A stretch of DNA of 64,000 bases from Hexactinellida sp. DTS-2022. Lineage: Eukaryota; Porifera; Hexactinellida. Positions 37,511-46,201 of the stretch are shown piece by piece; position 1 is the first letter of the stretch, and the number at the start of each line of letters is the position of its first letter. The translations under genes were made by a program, and so were the position numbers. Location of the stretch: positions 2,976,001 to 3,040,000 of the forward strand of contig JAPNXP010000007.1 of NCBI GenBank assembly GCA_028753945.1. Reading direction: 5' to 3'. Under the pieces are notes generated by a model. The model made no database searches. It saw nothing but the letters and a program-made list of their open reading frames with translations, and was not told the origin of the DNA.

Positions 37511-37960
37511 GCTTTTTTAGGCCCCATGCGGCGAGACGAGTGTTATCTTAGCGGCGGATTCGCAGACCTCACGTTTAGCTAATAACTCAAAAAGTTTACG
37601 CTGTACGCGAAAAATTATCACATCAGCGGAAAGATTAAAGTTGTGACAACCCATATATAATCCCAAAATGTCAAAATTCCTTAAGACGACTTAGCAATTT
37701 TCGCTCAAATTTAGACCCCGGTTTTTCCGTAATAACTCAAAAATAATTCATTATATCAAACTTTTCTTTTAATCACATGTTTATCTCACCTATGACAACC
37801 TGTCATGTAAATTTCAAAACATAATATTCATTTTTGAAAAATATTAATAACATAAATTTCACTAAAATCTGCTTACAATGATGATTTTGCATTTCCAAAA
37901 TGTAGAAAATGTTGTCAACTCTAATACGTAATACTACATATTGATAATAATTTATTTGAT
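37511..37960. repeat. Outer inverted repeat, left arm
   Basis: Reverse complement, with small gaps, of 45595-46055. Shared words include CTTAGCGGCGGATTCGCAGA, GAGTTATTACGG in inverse, and TGTTGTCAACTCTAAT near the inner edge. The right arm has an extra GGCGGATTCATC block. Together with the inner pair it forms two concentric palindromes around the nuclease gene. Confidence 0.8.
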
Positions 37961-39004
37961 TTGCGTCACAGTGTTCACAGGAATTAAAGTTTTTGGTACC
38001 TCTGAAGAATAATTCATGACTGCACTCCCTAATTATATCAGGATTAGTGATTACTTTCTGTAAACACGATTGCAATAACTTACATAATACAAACAACTTC
38101 ATATACAACTGATTCAAGTATATTTGGAATGCAATATTCATTAAGATAGAATCAGACATATAAAAAATATAATTGTTACTACAACTATGTTAGGTATTTT
38201 AAGCAACTCCAGGTTTTTTTCATTTCCATAATCTGCGTAACTTCTATCTGAATGATCTTACTTGTGCCGGTGTTCTTCTCTCAAATATACGTATTTGGCT
38301 TTTAAAGAGGGCGAATCTATATAAATGTAAAGCTAATATTATCTCAGAATATGACTTACCAACGAGTGCATGATGTTAAAATGGTGAAAATATTAGTAAT
38401 GCTTATATGAGATAAGAAAGATCGAGATAACCAAAGGTATTCTAAAAAAGGTAGAGAACTAATTAGTAGAACATGGAAATAAAGAGAGAACTAGTTTATT
38501 GGTTTAGGATTTAACACATTAATGATAATATGCATTAATTCCTATCACTGGTACGATATTAAAAGGGCGCCATTAAATTTAACAGGTAGTACATCTACAT
38601 ATTGTGGTAACACAATTGCAACTCTTCTAAAACTCTGCCTTGTTCAATTAAAAAATTAATTAATTATTATTTTCGAATTTAACAGAAATAATAGGTTCAT
38701 AATGATTCCCAACATTTCGTATATAAATCCCATTTGGGATTGGCGCCTTCAGTAAATCTTCAAAAGTTGATCCATTCCCTGAAAATCCAATCCAACGTGT
38801 TCCCAACGGACCCAAGAATACCCAGATATCAATATAAATAACAAAGCAGTTGCAAAGAGTTCAAGATCTGTAGCCCATTTCCCGCTCTTCCTCATTCCTG
38901 TTTTGTTAACCAAGTAACGTACTGATCATTTGCTTTACGAGATGCTGAAAGTTTCCTCCATTCAATCTCCATTTGGAGCTGTAGTGCAGCCGATTAGCAA
39001 AATA
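37961..39004. other. Spacer between outer and inner left arms
   Basis: A minus-strand ORF at 37803-38159 (118 codons; NSCEHCDANQIN) overlaps the outer arm and extends inward; its CEHC is the only notable feature. No gene that I can support. Confidence 0.35.
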
Positions 39005-39346
39005 ATTGTGCATTGTATGGTACAAGCATGAAATTTTCCACAATGATTCTATAGGCCATGAAGTTCATTTTAAGATCGGGACCCATCTTGAAGGTCACCT
39101 GTATTGACCTTGGCGCCTATTTTGGTTTCTCACCTTTCCATATATGGTAATATTGTAAATAACTCCTATTATGTTCTAGTTAGACATGAAAAATGTATTA
39201 CTGTCGACTAGGAAGTGATATATGGGGAGTCGATTGGTTCTATTGAATTTACTTAAATATGTATGGACATTGCTTTTGCGGTTTCACACCTGTCCATATA
39301 TGGTAATGTTATGAATAACTCGTATTTAATTAAAATTACACTTGAC
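39005..39346 (+). repeat. Inner inverted repeat, left arm
   Basis: Pairs with 44232-44726. It holds two diverged units of about 156 bp, each with CCATATATGG and AATAACTCSTATT words. Confidence 0.85.
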
Positions 39347-39446
39347 AAATTAGTGCACTAGATAAATCACATATAAATGGTATTGTACTGAGTGCATCCT
39401 ATGGAACAAGTATGAAATTTTGATCAATGGTCATAAGTTCATGTGC

Positions 39447-41903
39447 CTAGTCCTGACAATTTCCTGAACACGCACATAGTGAAGTACATTTTAACACTGC
39501 TTTAACGCATTTGCATTGCCCACGACATCCCTTCTTACAACCACAGTGTATCAGTTCATAGCAAGACTTTGATGCTTCTGGGAGAGTGGTCCAGAGCGGC
39601 TGCCATTCAGTTAAGACCTTGGTCCATCCCCAGTCAGAAGGATTTGGCAACTGTGGATCGGATGACAGACACATATTCCAGCAATGGCACTGGTAACGGG
39701 CACGCTTTATGTGCTGTTCTAATGCAGCCTGAGTTGGTGGAATGTTCTCCAGAATACGAGATGTCTGGGAAAACAGTTGTTTCCTGGCATCATTGACCCT
39801 ATTGAGGTCACTTGTTCTGCTATACATTAGGATAACAAAGCGTTCTATAATTTCTATCGACGTGTTGCTAATAGCATCTGCCATGTCCATCAGCTCTTCA
39901 AATGCTTCAGTGACCTCGGGGTACACATTCCAGGTTGACCATGCAGTCTTCTTTCCTATACTTGCAAATGAAGACACAGTGTCACAGCCTGTAAGTGCGT
40001 GGAACATTGGAAGAGTTGCAGACTTCCTTGGGCCAATGGTTGCAACTATATCATGGATTGCTATGAATCTGAAATTTCCACCAGTACCAAACGCTACCCA
40101 CAGTTTATCGGGTTTTATGCTGTTTAGAGTCGCTATTGCCAGTACCACGACATCAGTATCAACTGTACGCACCAACAGTCTCTTGTGTCCCTTTTTGACA
40201 GCATCTACCACGTGCAAAAACAGACGCGTGTCGGCTTCCTCTTGTGAGCATGGCACCAGCTCTGCTAAATCAGCTTGTACCAAAGAACAAAGCACATTAT
40301 GTCCATCGGTTGTATACACTTCTTTTCCTTCTCTATGTATAAGAGCGACTTTGTGAGACAGGAAGCTGAACAGTTCTGTTTTGTTTTCGTCCACGCGTAA
40401 ATCTTTCCAGTTCTTTGGCATCGCTGCAGTAGGAACTACTCGTCTACGCACACCTTTGCCCCTCTTTTGTCTGAGAGTACCCTTAAGGCTATCTGGTTGA
40501 TAAACATCCCAAACAATGTCAACACGCATTGTATTCTCAAGTTGTGCTGATACATATGGGACAAACACTTGCTCTGCATACTCCAAAAAGGTCTTTGCTG
40601 TTCCGGGATTCAACATATGGACCACGGCGGCACCATCCAAAAATATCGCATCAACGACAGGGGATTCTTCCGATGCTGTTGTCTCTGCTTCGAGGCAAGG
40701 CATTAGATCGGCCTTTGTACCATACCGAAGTTTGCCTCCCAGTGACAGAGATGGTGGGCAAGCATGGTTTTCGTGACAGAAGAACTGGTCCACATCCCCG
40801 TCTCTTAACTGACAAGCCAGATATAACCGGGAGAATAAATTGCAGTCCCCTTTTACTGATTGCAGCTGTAGCTTCCCTTTAGAAGTAACTTTGACTGCAG
40901 GACGGCTGAAAAGTGGTAGCTTGTTCTTGGGCAATGTATCTGTAACAGGCTTCGCACACTTGGACAGCCTTTCATCAACAAACTTGTTGTATTGGTCTTG
41001 ACCAATGGTTTCCACTTTTCTGACAGTTTCAGCAACTGACTCGTTCATGATATATTTGGTGTCTAGAACCAGAAGCTCATTGCTTTCCTCCAGGAAGGGG
41101 TTTCCCATCTCTTGAATCACAGCTGTTAGCGATTTGACGTCTTTAAGAAAGGCAGACTGCACTTCAGGTTGCTGTTCATGGTGATGATCGAGGTTTTGTT
41201 TCGCTCTTCGCCCGCAAGCCACCTGACCGTCTTCAAATTCTGCAACCAATCGTGCAACTTCAGGACCTGCCAATGTCCAGCGCCTCAGTGCTGCGGGATT
41301 GTCTAACAGCCCAACTGCCCCTCCTGATCCTTTGACCAAACTGTTATTCTGCTCTTGACATTGGTCGATGGCCATTGCTGAAAACTTGTTACTTGTTTTG
41401 TAGACAACAAATTTTCCAGCACGAAATTCTGAAAGGATATTTGGATGCTTTTCCGGTAGAATCATCATGTCACGGATGTGGACAGACAACCAACGGGAAT
41501 AATGGGTGTGGTCTAATGCGAACATCCATGGTGTAATTTGTGCGAGGGATTGGACATACAGGTCAAAATTTCCTTCCCGAAGTGATCTAACATACAGAAG
41601 AAGCATGATCTCTAGTGACAGAACTTTGAGCCAGTAATCAAAATGAACACTTCGCTTTGTCTGCTGTGTGCACCATTCTTTGAATGTAGGAGTAGGAGTA
41701 CCATCTTCTTTTGTGAGTGGACAATGTTCAGTGTATGCCTGGATGATCAAACAATGCAGACTTGCTGCTGTAACTTGATGTGCATGACGTGTTTTCGTCA
41801 CATGGCTTGCTGAAATGAACGAGTCTGTTGTACCCGAGCTTGCAACATTGGCTAGGGTCAGTGCACTTGTCCATCCACTGTCTTCTAGCCAATTTCCTAA
41901 CAA
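39447..41903 (-). CDS. Transposase-like protein, exon 2: XPG/FEN-1-like nuclease with CXC tail
   Basis: An open frame of 818 codons, with no internal ATG needed because it is an exon. Residues 1-240 hold FALDHTHYSRWLSVHIRDM, FSAMAIDQCQEQNN and GGAVGL, similar to a transposase region. Residues about 417-690 follow the FEN-1 order: DAIFLDGAAVVHML (N-terminal Asp strand), VDIVWDVYQPDSLK with a basic KRGKGVRRR (FEN: FDGxPPxxK), then EEADTRLFLH at 555, RTVDTDVVVLA at 583 and HALTGCDTVSSF at 635. These supply the acidic metal-binding residues of XPG/FEN nucleases. The tail (about 787-818) is Cys-rich, CGCKKGCRGQCKC then CTSLCACSGNC, like CXC DNA-binding tails. The product should cut structured or nicked DNA. 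Ends at TAG/TGA near 39447. Confidence 0.75.
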   Translation of the reverse strand: MLGNWLEDSGWTSALTLANVASSGTTDSFISASHVTKTRHAHQVTAASLHCLIIQAYTEHCPLTKEDGTPTPTFKEWCTQQTKRSVHFDYWLKVLSLEIMLLLYVRSLREGNFDLYVQSLAQITPWMFALDHTHYSRWLSVHIRDMMILPEKHPNILSEFRAGKFVVYKTSNKFSAMAIDQCQEQNNSLVKGSGGAVGLLDNPAALRRWTLAGPEVARLVAEFEDGQVACGRRAKQNLDHHHEQQPEVQSAFLKDVKSLTAVIQEMGNPFLEESNELLVLDTKYIMNESVAETVRKVETIGQDQYNKFVDERLSKCAKPVTDTLPKNKLPLFSRPAVKVTSKGKLQLQSVKGDCNLFSRLYLACQLRDGDVDQFFCHENHACPPSLSLGGKLRYGTKADLMPCLEAETTASEESPVVDAIFLDGAAVVHMLNPGTAKTFLEYAEQVFVPYVSAQLENTMRVDIVWDVYQPDSLKGTLRQKRGKGVRRRVVPTAAMPKNWKDLRVDENKTELFSFLSHKVALIHREGKEVYTTDGHNVLCSLVQADLAELVPCSQEEADTRLFLHVVDAVKKGHKRLLVRTVDTDVVVLAIATLNSIKPDKLWVAFGTGGNFRFIAIHDIVATIGPRKSATLPMFHALTGCDTVSSFASIGKKTAWSTWNVYPEVTEAFEELMDMADAISNTSIEIIERFVILMYSRTSDLNRVNDARKQLFSQTSRILENIPPTQAALEQHIKRARYQCHCWNMCLSSDPQLPNPSDWGWTKVLTEWQPLWTTLPEASKSCYELIHCGCKKGCRGQCKCVKAVLKCTSLCACSGNCQD

Positions 41904-41977
41904 CTATAAAAGGAATGTAAAAGCATTATAAAGAGTACGTATAATGAAGTTAAAGCCAATTAGTATACTTAACTTAC
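41904..41977 (-). other. 74-bp GT-AG intron
   Basis: On the minus strand the donor is AAG/GTAAGT and the acceptor is TTTATAG/TTG. Splicing joins AVLK to LLGNWLEDSGW without a frame change. Both flanking frames end close to the splice sites, which supports it. Confidence 0.85.
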
Positions 41978-44090
41978 CTTCAAAACTGCCATTTCGATAT
42001 GTAGGCCACCAAACATTATTACGAAAGAGTTTTCTCCATGTGTAGACGGCCATGTCCATTGTATTTGCTTGGCCATCGCATACAAAGGCTGATCAGCAGC
42101 AAGGACTGGGACTTGACCAGGATTGAGAAACTGAACAACTGCATTGACAAGGTTCATGGAATGTTTGATCATGGCCACTGAGTGTGCATTGTCCAGGAAG
42201 AGAGGTAAAAGGGCATTTTAATGAAGCTGGAGGGATTGATTTTTGCTGGTTGTGAGCATGGTATGCTGACCAAGAAATCCAGTCTCCATTGACCAGTTCT
42301 TCCTTCTTTAGTGCAGTCATCACTGTGTTCAGCCACTCTGTCTCTTCTTCTTTAGCTTTAGCTACAAGCTGAAGTTCTGGAGGCTTTACATGCCCATAAA
42401 CCACCGGTGCTTTGAACACCTTTGTCTTCAGAGCAGCTGGAGGTACGGATGTGTAGCTTGCTGCTAATGGAGGTATTGATTTGGTCGAGGAATTCTCCTG
42501 ATTAGTGACGAGATCACCACGTATGATGCCAGTTAATCCATGGGACAAATTTTGAATGATGGAAATACTTGTACCATGAAAGGAATCGTGAGCAGTAGTT
42601 GAAGTTGGATTGTGGTCTATGTTATCAACTGCACCAATGGTAAAGAGTTCTTTACGCATTTTGGGTGGACACACGACCTTATCTGCTTCGAATCTTGTAC
42701 AAATTCCCTTTGCCAAGTCTGCAGTTATTTGTAGTACTCTGTCATATGATATACACATTCCCAGACTAAATAAAGTGTCAACCAGAGTTCTCTTGCGTGT
42801 GAGGCCATGAATTTTAAGAGCTATGTATATTGGAAGAGGACTTTCCCGGTCTCGACTATGGTGTGCTGAGCTGGTTGATTTGGCAGACCTTGTATGTTTT
42901 ACGCTGTTGAACATCAACAGCTGAGATATAGAAAGAGCAGCACTTGTATTCAATGAGGTACCCAACTGTGCCTGGTGTTTGATGTTTGGCCCTTCTTGTA
43001 TCATGTTCACGAGAGCCAACAAAGATGTTGGGATGGCCTCTTGTTGACAACCTTTCTCGAATGACCCATTAAAAGAGAACTTTCGATTGAACATTTCTTG
43101 GCGCACAATCTGAGCAGCTCTTGCCAAGTATAGAGCTTCAGTATCATGGTCACATGCCTTCCTGAGCGCATCCCCGAGATGCTGGTCAAACGTAAGGAGT
43201 ATGCCGCGGCCCTCTGTGTGTGCGGTGAGATCAGGAAATGCTGCTAATAATCTGATTTTCAGTCTTGTGCTATGAATTCGATTATGCACACTGGCCCCTA
43301 ACTGATTGAGCCTTGTTGTGTACAGCTCTACCAGACCGGTTAATTCAAAGACAGGAGCAGTGTCTTCCGCCTTGCGGAAGTCTTCCATGTATGCCACTAA
43401 CTGTGCGAATGCTATGCCATGCAAATCAGCATCAGTTATGTCACTATCTCTGCTGATATCAGCCCTTGATGCCTTGTTATAGAAGGCTACAAGACATTTA
43501 GCATGATATTTTGCCTCTATTGCTATCATGTCTCCCGGAGCTAACTTGGCCAAAAGCTTAGTATCTTGGAGTTCATGTGCACACTTACGGACTCGCAAGT
43601 CAATGTCAAAGGTTGAAGCTTGGCGAAGACTTGTTCGTCCTGCTGGTTCTTCACAGAAGAAACATGTTGGTTGAACCGATTTAGATTGACCTGTACTGCG
43701 TGTATGAAGGATTGAAGGAAAAGGTGTGTCCTTCACAGTCTGTTTCCTCAAAGCACGTTCTAACTTCATATCGCTGAAATTTAGCAAACATGTTTTGTGC
43801 CATACAGCGAAATTTGTATCTAGAGTTGCTTCTATGCCACTTCCATTATCAAGTCTTTCAAGGTCAATTTCCATGGGCAAGCATCCGAGTTTCTTAAATT
43901 CATTGAGGTTAATTGCTAAGGACGCATATCCACTTCCAACTACTGGTTTTATTTTTCTTCCGGGATTCTGAAGAGCATGGCCAGTGTCTTTCTGGCACAA
44001 TGCACACAGCTCCCAGTTAGTGGATGCAATTAGTTTTGGATGCTTTGAATTGCTTGAAGCAGGTTCTATCAACATAAAACGCTTGGCCAT
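41978..44090 (-). CDS. Transposase-like protein, exon 1: zinc-binding N-terminal part
   Basis: From ATG at 44090 the frame runs 637 codons with two Cys/His clusters. The first is CALCQKDTG with WHKTCLLNF about 75 residues on; the second is CFFCEEPAG with CAHEL and YHAKCLVAFYNKA. A long helical middle follows. Near 42225 the reading frame must shift by one base to continue as LPLFLDNAHSVAMIKHSMN, VPVLAADQPLYAMAKQIQW and VIMFGGLHIEMAVLK, the end of the exon before GTAAGT. The AADQP Asp and GGLHIEMA Glu are conserved in homologues as I remember them and may be catalytic. The family is widespread in invertebrates as hypothetical proteins. The single shift is either a true mutation or a sequencing error. 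Confidence 0.65.
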
Positions 44091-44231
44091 TGTACGATGA
44101 AAGGAAATGAAGAGGTACTCTGCAATACTCTCTACTAAACTCTACCTGAATATACAAGAAATATAGGACATTTTTAATGTCTAACTGTAACCGAATATAA
44201 TTTATTAACAACTAACGCTTCGCTTGTTTTA

Positions 44232-44726
44232 ATGTCTAATTTTAATTAAATACGAGTTATTCATAACATTACCATATATGGACAGGTGTGAAACCGCAAA
44301 AGCAATGTCCATACATATTTAAGTAAATTCAATAGAACCAATCGACTCCCCATATATCACTTCCTAGTCGACAATAATACATTTTTCATGTGTAACTAGA
44401 ACCAAATACGAGTTATTCATAACATTACCATATATGGACAGGTGTGAAACCGCAAAAGCAATGTCCATACATATTTAAGTAAATTCAATAGAACCAATCG
44501 ACTCCCCATATATCACTTCCTAGTCGACAGTAATACATTTTTCATGTCTAACTAGAACATAATAGGAGTTATTTACAATATTACCATATATGGAAAGGTG
44601 AGAAACCAAAATAGGCGCCAAGGTCAATACAGGTGACCTTCAAGATGGGTCCCGATCTTAAAATGAACTTCATGGCCTATAGAATCATTGTGGAAAATTT
44701 CATGCTTGTACCATACAATGCACAAT
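44232..44726 (-). repeat. Inner inverted repeat, right arm, with 156-bp tandem units
   Basis: Units begin at TACGAGTTATTCATAAC (44251), again at 44407 with few changes, and in diverged form near 44563. The arm is about 150 bp longer than the left arm because of the extra unit. CCATATATGG is palindromic and could be a binding site. Confidence 0.85.
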
Positions 44727-44817
44727 ACCTTGTATATTTGTGGCTAGTCTGCGCACTACTGAGAGAATCGCGCTTAGTAGCCTTCTTTTTCCCAAAAAGA
44801 ATAATTGACAATTTTCC

Positions 44818-44931
44818 CTAGACAGATTTTGGCTTATGTTTGTCTCCTTTGTTCAAAGCATCTCTTACGATATCGAAGCTTTCATAGCCCAGTTTCTGGA
44901 GAGCTTCGACGAATTGCTCTATTGAAGTCAT
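44818..44931 (-). CDS. 37-residue mini-ORF upstream of the nuclease gene
   Basis: From ATG at 44931 the minus strand encodes MTSIEQFVEALQKLGYESF followed by DIVRDALNKGDKHKPKSV and a stop. It reads as two amphipathic helices with a basic tail. It sits in the spacer between inner and outer arms, in the same direction as the big gene. It could be an exon or relic of a larger protein. Not recognised. Confidence 0.35.
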   Translation of the reverse strand: MTSIEQFVEALQKLGYESFDIVRDALNKGDKHKPKSV

Positions 44932-45002
44932 TACTAAATCAGTAGAAGAAATAATTATTATTATTTTAATTAATCAATAGTTATTCAATACATATAAGCT
45001 AC

Positions 45003-45176
45003 TACAGTAGAACCGCGTTAATACGAACACGGTTAATTAACACGAATTTCCGGGTAAGAAGAACAGTTCCACAAAATCAGGTCCCTACAATAGCGATTGA
45101 ATGGGTATTAATCCGGTTAATACGAACTCCGGGCAAAGCGAACAAATTTGTATCGTCCGTTGGTATCGACTGCATA
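45003..45176. mobile_element. Pogo/Tigger-like MITE
   Basis: The left end TACAGTAGAACCGCGTTAAT and the damaged right end (GGTATCGACTGCATA) are inverted. CGTTAATACGAAC and GGTTAATACGAAC words face each other. Lies in the right spacer of the concentric palindrome. Confidence 0.55.
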
Positions 45177-45594
45177 TAGTAATATTACATAATTATGTTA
45201 GTGTTCTAGGCCGGAGGTATTTCCTTCCGCCGGCCTTGGGCATCCAAACCTTGAGGGCCACGATATTGTAAATTAAATTTTAGATTTGATCCTTCAAAAT
45301 GTAGTGGTAAAATAACGGTCCGGCCATGGCCTGCCCTGGTATTATTAATAAATAAAAAAGTAACTAAGGAAAATAAAATCAATAAAATCACTTGAAATGG
45401 AAGAATCGACTTGGAGGAATAAAAAAGAGAGTAGAAAATGAAATGAGGAGAAAATGGAGATGAGAAATATGCTGTAAAGTCAAAAAGATGTTTGAAAAAA
45501 ATGGAAAATGTGTGTGTGAAAAAAAGGAAATAAATTTGTAGAAAATTAAGTAGAAGAAAAGCAGTGTATATTTATAATGAGAAATCATTAAATT
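45177..45594. other. Gene-free stretch, purine-rich
   Basis: 45400-45580 is strongly purine-rich on the plus strand (GGAGAAAATGGAGATGAG-like). No gene seen. Confidence 0.4.
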
Positions 45595-46055
45595 ATAATC
45601 AAAGGACATAATAAATTCTTATCAATAGTATTACGCATTAGAGTTGACAACATATTCTACATTATGGATATTGGATAGGTATGCAAATCATAATTGTAAG
45701 CCGATTTTAGTGAAATTTATGTAAATAATATTTTTTCAAAATTGAATATTTTGTTTCGAAATTTACATGACAGTTTGCCATAGTTGAGATAGACATGTGA
45801 CTAAAAGGAAAATTTGATAGAATGAATAATCTTTGAGTTATTACGGAAAAACCGAGGTCTAAATATGAGCAAAAATTGCTAAGTCATCTTGAGGAATTTT
45901 GACATTTGGGATTATACATGGGTTGTCACAACTTTCATCTTTCCGCTGATGTGATAATTTTTCACGTACGCGTAAACTTTTTGAGTTATTAGCATAAACG
46001 TGAGGTCTGCGAATCCGCCGATGAATCCGCCGCTAAGATTACACTCGTTGCGGCG
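45595..46055. repeat. Outer inverted repeat, right arm
   Basis: Inverse of 37511-37960; see that entry. The outer edge reads GTTGCGGCGAG. Confidence 0.8.
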
Positions 46056-46201
46056 AGTAAAAAGTCAGTTAAATGGCAATACTATAGTATCTAGATTATA
46101 AAAATATATAGCAAATCTAGAATATTAAAGCATGCTAAAAATTCCTTAAAATGTACAAAAATTAAAAATTGGCCTCGTAGAACATTTTTAGGCATTGCTG
46201 C

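Follow-up and report, generated by a model that had tools for sequence, protein, structure and literature searches.

The nuclease of Academ transposons is XPG-like. Within Academ, AcademX elements produce target duplications of 3 or 4 bp and AcademH elements duplications of 9 or 10 bp, lengths which the accessible part of the source relates to the encoded nuclease and helicase (PMC10045372). Curated Academ elements of bivalves have a mean length of 5,565 bp, and the available text of the same study counts Academ among the DDE/D superfamilies (PMC10294476); a further paper, in its accessible part, only lists Academ by name (PMC5753468), and the accessible text of another has no mention of it (PMC12730594). 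Here we explore a locus of Hexactinellida sp. DTS-2022 at which a nuclease of this kind appears to form part of a transposase. The window is a 64-kb piece of the genome (C16:2976001-3040000), all positions without a prefix are positions within it, and the genome searched comprises 112.4 Mb in 18 contigs. An earlier note on this DNA had described two concentric pairs of inverted repeats around a two-exon gene for a FEN-like nuclease. The region is a nested insertion, in which a nuclease-bearing transposon lies inside an older, unrelated transposon. We assign a probability of about 0.85 to the explanation as a whole, which comprises this nest and an inner cut-and-paste transposase with a DDE domain, a FEN-type nuclease and a CXC tail, the inner element probably being of AcademX type.

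The inner transposon spans 5,777 bp (38982..44758) and has the termini TAGTGC...GCACTA. When the region was compared by BLAST with copies elsewhere in the genome, alignments started at 38980-38982, and where the right end is present, as in four copies (L009, L010, L012 and L013), they stopped at 44758-44759. Flank comparison and the empty site place a 3-bp target duplication, CTG, directly to the left (38979..38981) and right (44759..44761). For the empty-site search both flanks of the element were joined at one CTG and used as query against the genome. This query matched through the junction in all 40 scored places (of 147 candidates) with 94-98% identity, the match starting at query position 59-63 and ending at 218-220, and in 31 of them matched stretch and query stretch have exactly the same length; positions before 59 are unmatched because the outer copy has a deletion of its own. 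The 40+40 bases around the junction are gapless in eight of 10 outer copies and show one gap in the other two (L028 and L032). These empty sites show that the nuclease element was inserted into an older palindrome.

That palindrome belongs to the outer transposon (37536..46048), with ends ACGAGTGTTATC...GATTACACTCGT and the 9-bp target duplication TGCGGCGAG on its left (37527..37535) and right (46049..46057). The window holds an internally deleted copy enclosing the inner element, of which 37536-38981 and 44762-46048 remain; relative to the fuller copy L023 it lacks about 3.2 kb of the inside, with the break at 38915/38918. Perfect 9-bp duplications flank four of the five outer copies readable at both ends (window, L023, L030 and L031), L029 being without. 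The outer left arm has at least 57 genomic matches (40 of 216 candidates scored), and the stretches that separate the outer arm from the inner element have 45 matches on the left and 59 on the right. By coordinates, no outer-family place among the matches listed lies near any of the 12 left ends of the inner element described below, the window itself excepted. L023 and L030 carry a stop-to-stop frame of 1255 aa that is unrelated to the inner gene (L023:1969-5733, minus strand). In L023 the C-terminus of this frame matches an OTU-like protease (PF02338, E 3e-5), the sole Pfam match above cut-off, and the Pfam scan gave no recognised transposase profile. The arms of L023-like copies consist of tandem units of about 357 nt. 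Judging by duplication length, the outer family is possibly MULE-like.

The inner arms (39005-39350 and 44381-44726) are 346 nt long and 98% complementary, with one additional 156-nt unit on the right side starting at 44227. The outer arms form seven ungapped blocks of 88-100% between 37529-37936 and 45626-46055. With 98% in the inner arms against 88-95% in the longer outer blocks, the inner pair is less diverged, which fits the inner element as the younger insertion. Both pairs are centred on the gene, as would be expected if there were one transposon with two concentric sets of terminal repeats and the outer pair as its real ends. Such a transposon is refuted by the empty sites; moreover, copies of the inner element are surrounded by unrelated sequence in which the outer pair is missing, the gene in outer copies is a different one, and the separate duplications at the two pairs differ in length (3 bp versus 9 bp). 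We regard it as ruled out by the empty sites and the independent copies. The two inverted-repeat pairs described earlier are thus real, the true inner ends lying farther out than had been proposed. Between the outer pair as the real ends and insertion into an older palindrome, which the earlier note had left undecided, the empty sites and separate duplications speak for the latter. The double shell, which had been called unusual, is ordinary nesting and no new architecture, the outer pair being the ends of an unrelated transposon.

Duplications of 3 bp were found in six of the eight inner copies or relatives readable at both ends, a count that excludes L011, L014 and L016, with one readable end each. 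The matching triplets are CTG in the window, GTA in L009, ATA in L012 and TAA in L013. In three more distant relatives in this genome both ends were read by eye; L021 (TAGTCCAGCG...CGCTGCACTA, triplet AAA) and L039 (TAGTTAGG...CCCCACTA, triplet ATA, element about L039:100-5950, within C11:2283500-2291000) have matching triplets, and L019 has none. The 1-kb flanks of the window, L009, L010, L012 and L013 have nothing in common except two stretches of 51-53 nt shared by one L010 flank and one L012 flank. The genome contains 12 matches, with at most three mismatches, to a 24-base pattern taken from the left end, and none to the reversed control. L012 and L013 share an extra stretch of about 640 nt, 98.9% identical, at window position 42750-42757; since their flanks and triplets differ, that version must have moved as such. 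The stretch (L012:3759-4394 and L013:3735-4372) is itself bounded by short inverted repeats (14 nt, 93%) and is perhaps a small insertion travelling with its host element.

The transposase gene lies on the minus strand, as do all features of the protein given below. Exon 1 (41978..44090) begins at a putative ATG at 44090, which is a chosen start, and is followed by a GT-AG intron of 74 nt (41904..41977) and exon 2 (39447..41903). The exon 1 frame runs from stop to stop over 42093-44141 and is overlapped by an open reading frame in another frame (41969-42217), from which we infer one shift near 42,220. In L009, L012 and L013 a break occurs at the same protein position as the window's intron. 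A host gene lying between repeats by chance could likewise show mostly open frames in the window copy. Its multiple copies with shared edges and duplications argue against this, as do at least 66 protein-level genomic matches (41 of 539 candidates scored), many with stops, and copy number rules such a gene out. The mobility and multiple copies that had been proposed are therefore borne out by shared ends, duplications and left ends, and the gene is clearly not single-copy; the nearly intact frames with one shift, read earlier from the window, were also found.

At E <= 0.001 we found 545 relatives of the protein among 7,996 scored candidates. The best 120 were listed, and from these we chose 52 to 78 for the alignments. 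Named sources among the relatives listed are mostly animals (Capitella, Paramuricea, Amphimedon, Ciona, Patella, hagfish and bony fishes). P0117, a protein labelled as coming from a metagenome-assembled genome of the bacterium Sedimenticola, is 53% identical to exon 2 and probably represents animal host DNA in a bacterial bin. One source names relatives 'Tesmin/TSO1-like CXC domain-containing protein'. Because the Pfam profiles tried do not detect the nuclease, elements of this kind can easily be annotated in animal genomes as genes for 'uncharacterized CXC proteins'.

Exon 2 contains a predicted nuclease domain of the FEN/EXO1/XPG fold (39606..40703), assigned by fold prediction and conserved acids. 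Its acidic motifs (40623-40643, 40500-40520, 40224-40241, 40146-40163 and 39972-39992) follow the order of those in FEN1. The fold predicted from the window's own sequence matches EXO1, FEN1 and XPG, with the set of metal-binding acids present, and these acids are near invariant among 78 aligned relatives. Identity to the window's nuclease in the structure rows of EXO1 and FEN1 is about 13-16%. A Foldseek search with the whole two-domain model of 1112 aa placed XRN2, Xrn1 and flap nucleases on top, but with low TM-scores (about 0.2, query-normalised) and only two matches at E <= 0.001. Profile detection failed where fold comparison succeeded: the two window exons gave three weak Pfam hits below cut-off, none of them a nuclease of the FEN/XPG group, P0001 matched 5_3_exonuc at E 0.25, under the Pfam cut-off, NCBIfam offered flap endonuclease Xni at E 0.082 (12.5 bits versus a cut-off of 261), and a profile search of the sequences of solved structures returned one unrelated match at E 0.62. 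By fold comparison of predicted models we consider the assignment as a FEN/EXO1/XPG-type nuclease settled. Downstream lies a tesmin/TSO1-like CXC tail with nine cysteines (39456..39545), and exon 1 encodes CxxC and HxxxC motifs, read from the sequence (43986-44006, 43644-43664 and 43494-43511). The FEN-like motif order, the Cys-rich tail and the motifs behind the putative zinc clusters of exon 1 that had been noticed from the letters are all there, and prediction of the fold agrees with a FEN-type nuclease.

Between the Cys/His motifs and the nuclease the protein probably contains a DDE domain of the RNase H fold, split by an insertion of helices like that of P-element transposase; the evidence indicates this domain rather than proves it. 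In P0001 numbering and with counts from the alignment of relatives, the putative catalytic residues are a first Asp in DNIDHNP (42606..42626; D81 in 13/14, D84 in 15/15), a second Asp in AADQPLYA (42077..42100; D258 in 54/55) and a Glu in DQCQEQNN (41343..41366; E475 in 78/78). P0111, considered as a DDE-only query, was dropped, as it also contains the nuclease half. In L039 a 52%-identical relative has an uninterrupted frame over residues 3-1110 of P0001, spanning the DDE, nuclease and CXC parts.

Several observations weigh against the reading given at the outset. In L010 (TAT / CAA) and L019 (CTA / GTA) both ends are readable and show no matching triplet. No Pfam XPG/PIN profile matched any of 53 relatives at E <= 0.1, and it is the fold and the pattern of residues that support the nuclease assignment. 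The P-element match consists of one row, ranked 49 of the 50 shown, with an rmsd of 5.2 over a partly helical region. A scan with the Capitella relative P0019, which shows two stops in the window, found shifts or stops in every inner copy that it matched (window and L009-L016; L017 gave no match), so that present activity is unsupported by the scanned copies.

Alternatively, the nuclease might be the only strand-cutting enzyme, the N-terminal part being no DDE transposase and transposition proceeding without an RNase H-fold enzyme. In favour of this, the DDE call is drawn from the one P-element row and the conserved D, D and E positions, and Pfam gives the N-terminal part DUF6589 at best, the label of a family of unknown function. 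On the other hand, the order of strands and helices with D81/D84, D258 and E475 is as in DDE enzymes, the best-known structure for this part is a transposase, and Academ is counted among the DDE/D superfamilies in the available text (PMC10294476). We find a nuclease-only mechanism improbable. The earlier note had suggested a nuclease acting instead of, or together with, an RNase H-fold enzyme; replacement is improbable, and both are apparently present in one protein, tentatively so for the DDE domain.

Read from its N- to its C-terminus, the one large transposase has Cys/His clusters first, then the probable DDE domain of the RNase H fold, the nuclease with its predicted FEN1/EXO1/XPG fold and finally the CXC tail. 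In the course of events that we favour, the older transposon lost about 3.2 kb of its inside, and the second then jumped into the remnant. The Cys/His clusters, the CXC tail or both might bind the subterminal repeats, including the CCATATATGG palindromes. At the 3' ends of the element, the DDE centre would cut the strand that is transferred and join it to target phosphates 3 bp apart. The substrate of the nuclease centre would be a strand with a 5' end or a 5' branch; in the version we prefer, this is most likely the non-transferred strand at excision. Cut-and-paste transposition would then employ two different active sites on one polypeptide.

EXO1 and FEN1 are enzymes of repair and replication. 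As they are also the nearest folds, the same nest and protein could be explained by a FEN/EXO1-type domain that processes repair intermediates, such as 5' flaps at target gaps or empty-donor ends, after normal DDE transposition; 3-bp duplications that are clean in six of eight cases, as in ordinary DDE elements, agree with this. The near invariance of the nuclease acids implies that nuclease activity matters to the element, and the tie between duplication length and partner enzyme in Academ lineages, in the accessible part of the source, suggests a role in transposition itself (PMC10045372). Both count against repair processing, which we nevertheless rate at somewhat below even chances. The specific proposal that a P-element-like DDE centre works with an EXO1/FEN1-type nuclease in cis, which makes the second-strand cut at the ends, and that the duplication length is set by the partner enzyme, a nuclease here and a helicase in AcademH, is put forward tentatively and is rather unlikely to hold in full. 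If true, double-strand excision would be shared between two unrelated active sites of one polypeptide. Most DDE transposases handle the second strand with one active site, by hairpins, staggered cuts or host repair. With a near-invariant flap/exonuclease-type domain beside a probable DDE centre, which centre cuts which strand is directly testable, and such a test can start from the ends and the 3-bp duplication, which the clean nest with its empty sites defines exactly.

The left terminal inverted repeat region (38982..39350) contains CCATATATGG-type palindromes at 39116, 39138 and 39294, and the right one (44227..44758) contains tandem 156-nt units, with CC(A/T)6GG at 44272, 44428, 44584 and 44606. 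These positions make up seven of the nine CC(A/T)6GG sites of the 64-kb window. The motif is the consensus of SRF/MADS CArG boxes. Elsewhere, pairs of inverted stretches 2-4 kb apart are 73-76% similar to the inner arm in its subterminal part (query 125-323), though not in its tip, among other places at C10:2970273-2973878, C6:3740072-3742412, C4:3301317-3304928 and C17:1142350-1145841. From sequence likeness, they are possibly related or non-autonomous elements sharing subterminal repeats.

Among known transposons, EnSpm/CACTA elements have the termini 5'-CACTA...TAGTG-3'; those of the inner element run the opposite way, which excludes this group. Duplications of the P superfamily are 8 bp long, and the 3 bp found here exclude it as well; from P-element transposase (6pe2) the inner protein further differs by its additional nuclease and CXC tail. 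Unlike EXO1, FEN1 and XPG of the Rad2 family, the inner nuclease is part of a transposase, has the low identity to EXO1 and FEN1 given above and was missed by Pfam in the 53 relatives. The open-access library searched contained no paper joining Academ, XPG and transposon, Academ, flap endonuclease and transposase, or DUF6589 and transposase. AcademH, by name a sister lineage, differs by 9 or 10 bp duplications and a helicase in the available part of its description (PMC10045372); no helicase family appeared among the Pfam matches of the window exons, of 5 relatives or of 53 relatives, and together with the 3-bp duplications this excludes AcademH. AcademX shares duplications of this length (3 or 4 bp) and a nuclease within the transposase (PMC10045372, accessible part), and the 5,777 bp of the inner element are near the Academ mean of 5,565 bp in bivalves (PMC10294476, accessible part). 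Compared by these partial descriptions, that is by duplication length, nuclease and element length, no feature was found to set the inner element apart from AcademX. The family suggested in the earlier note is therefore likely, and the inner element is probably of AcademX type. It appears to be a further example of an already known type, in which the probable two-enzyme protein is the point of moderate interest.
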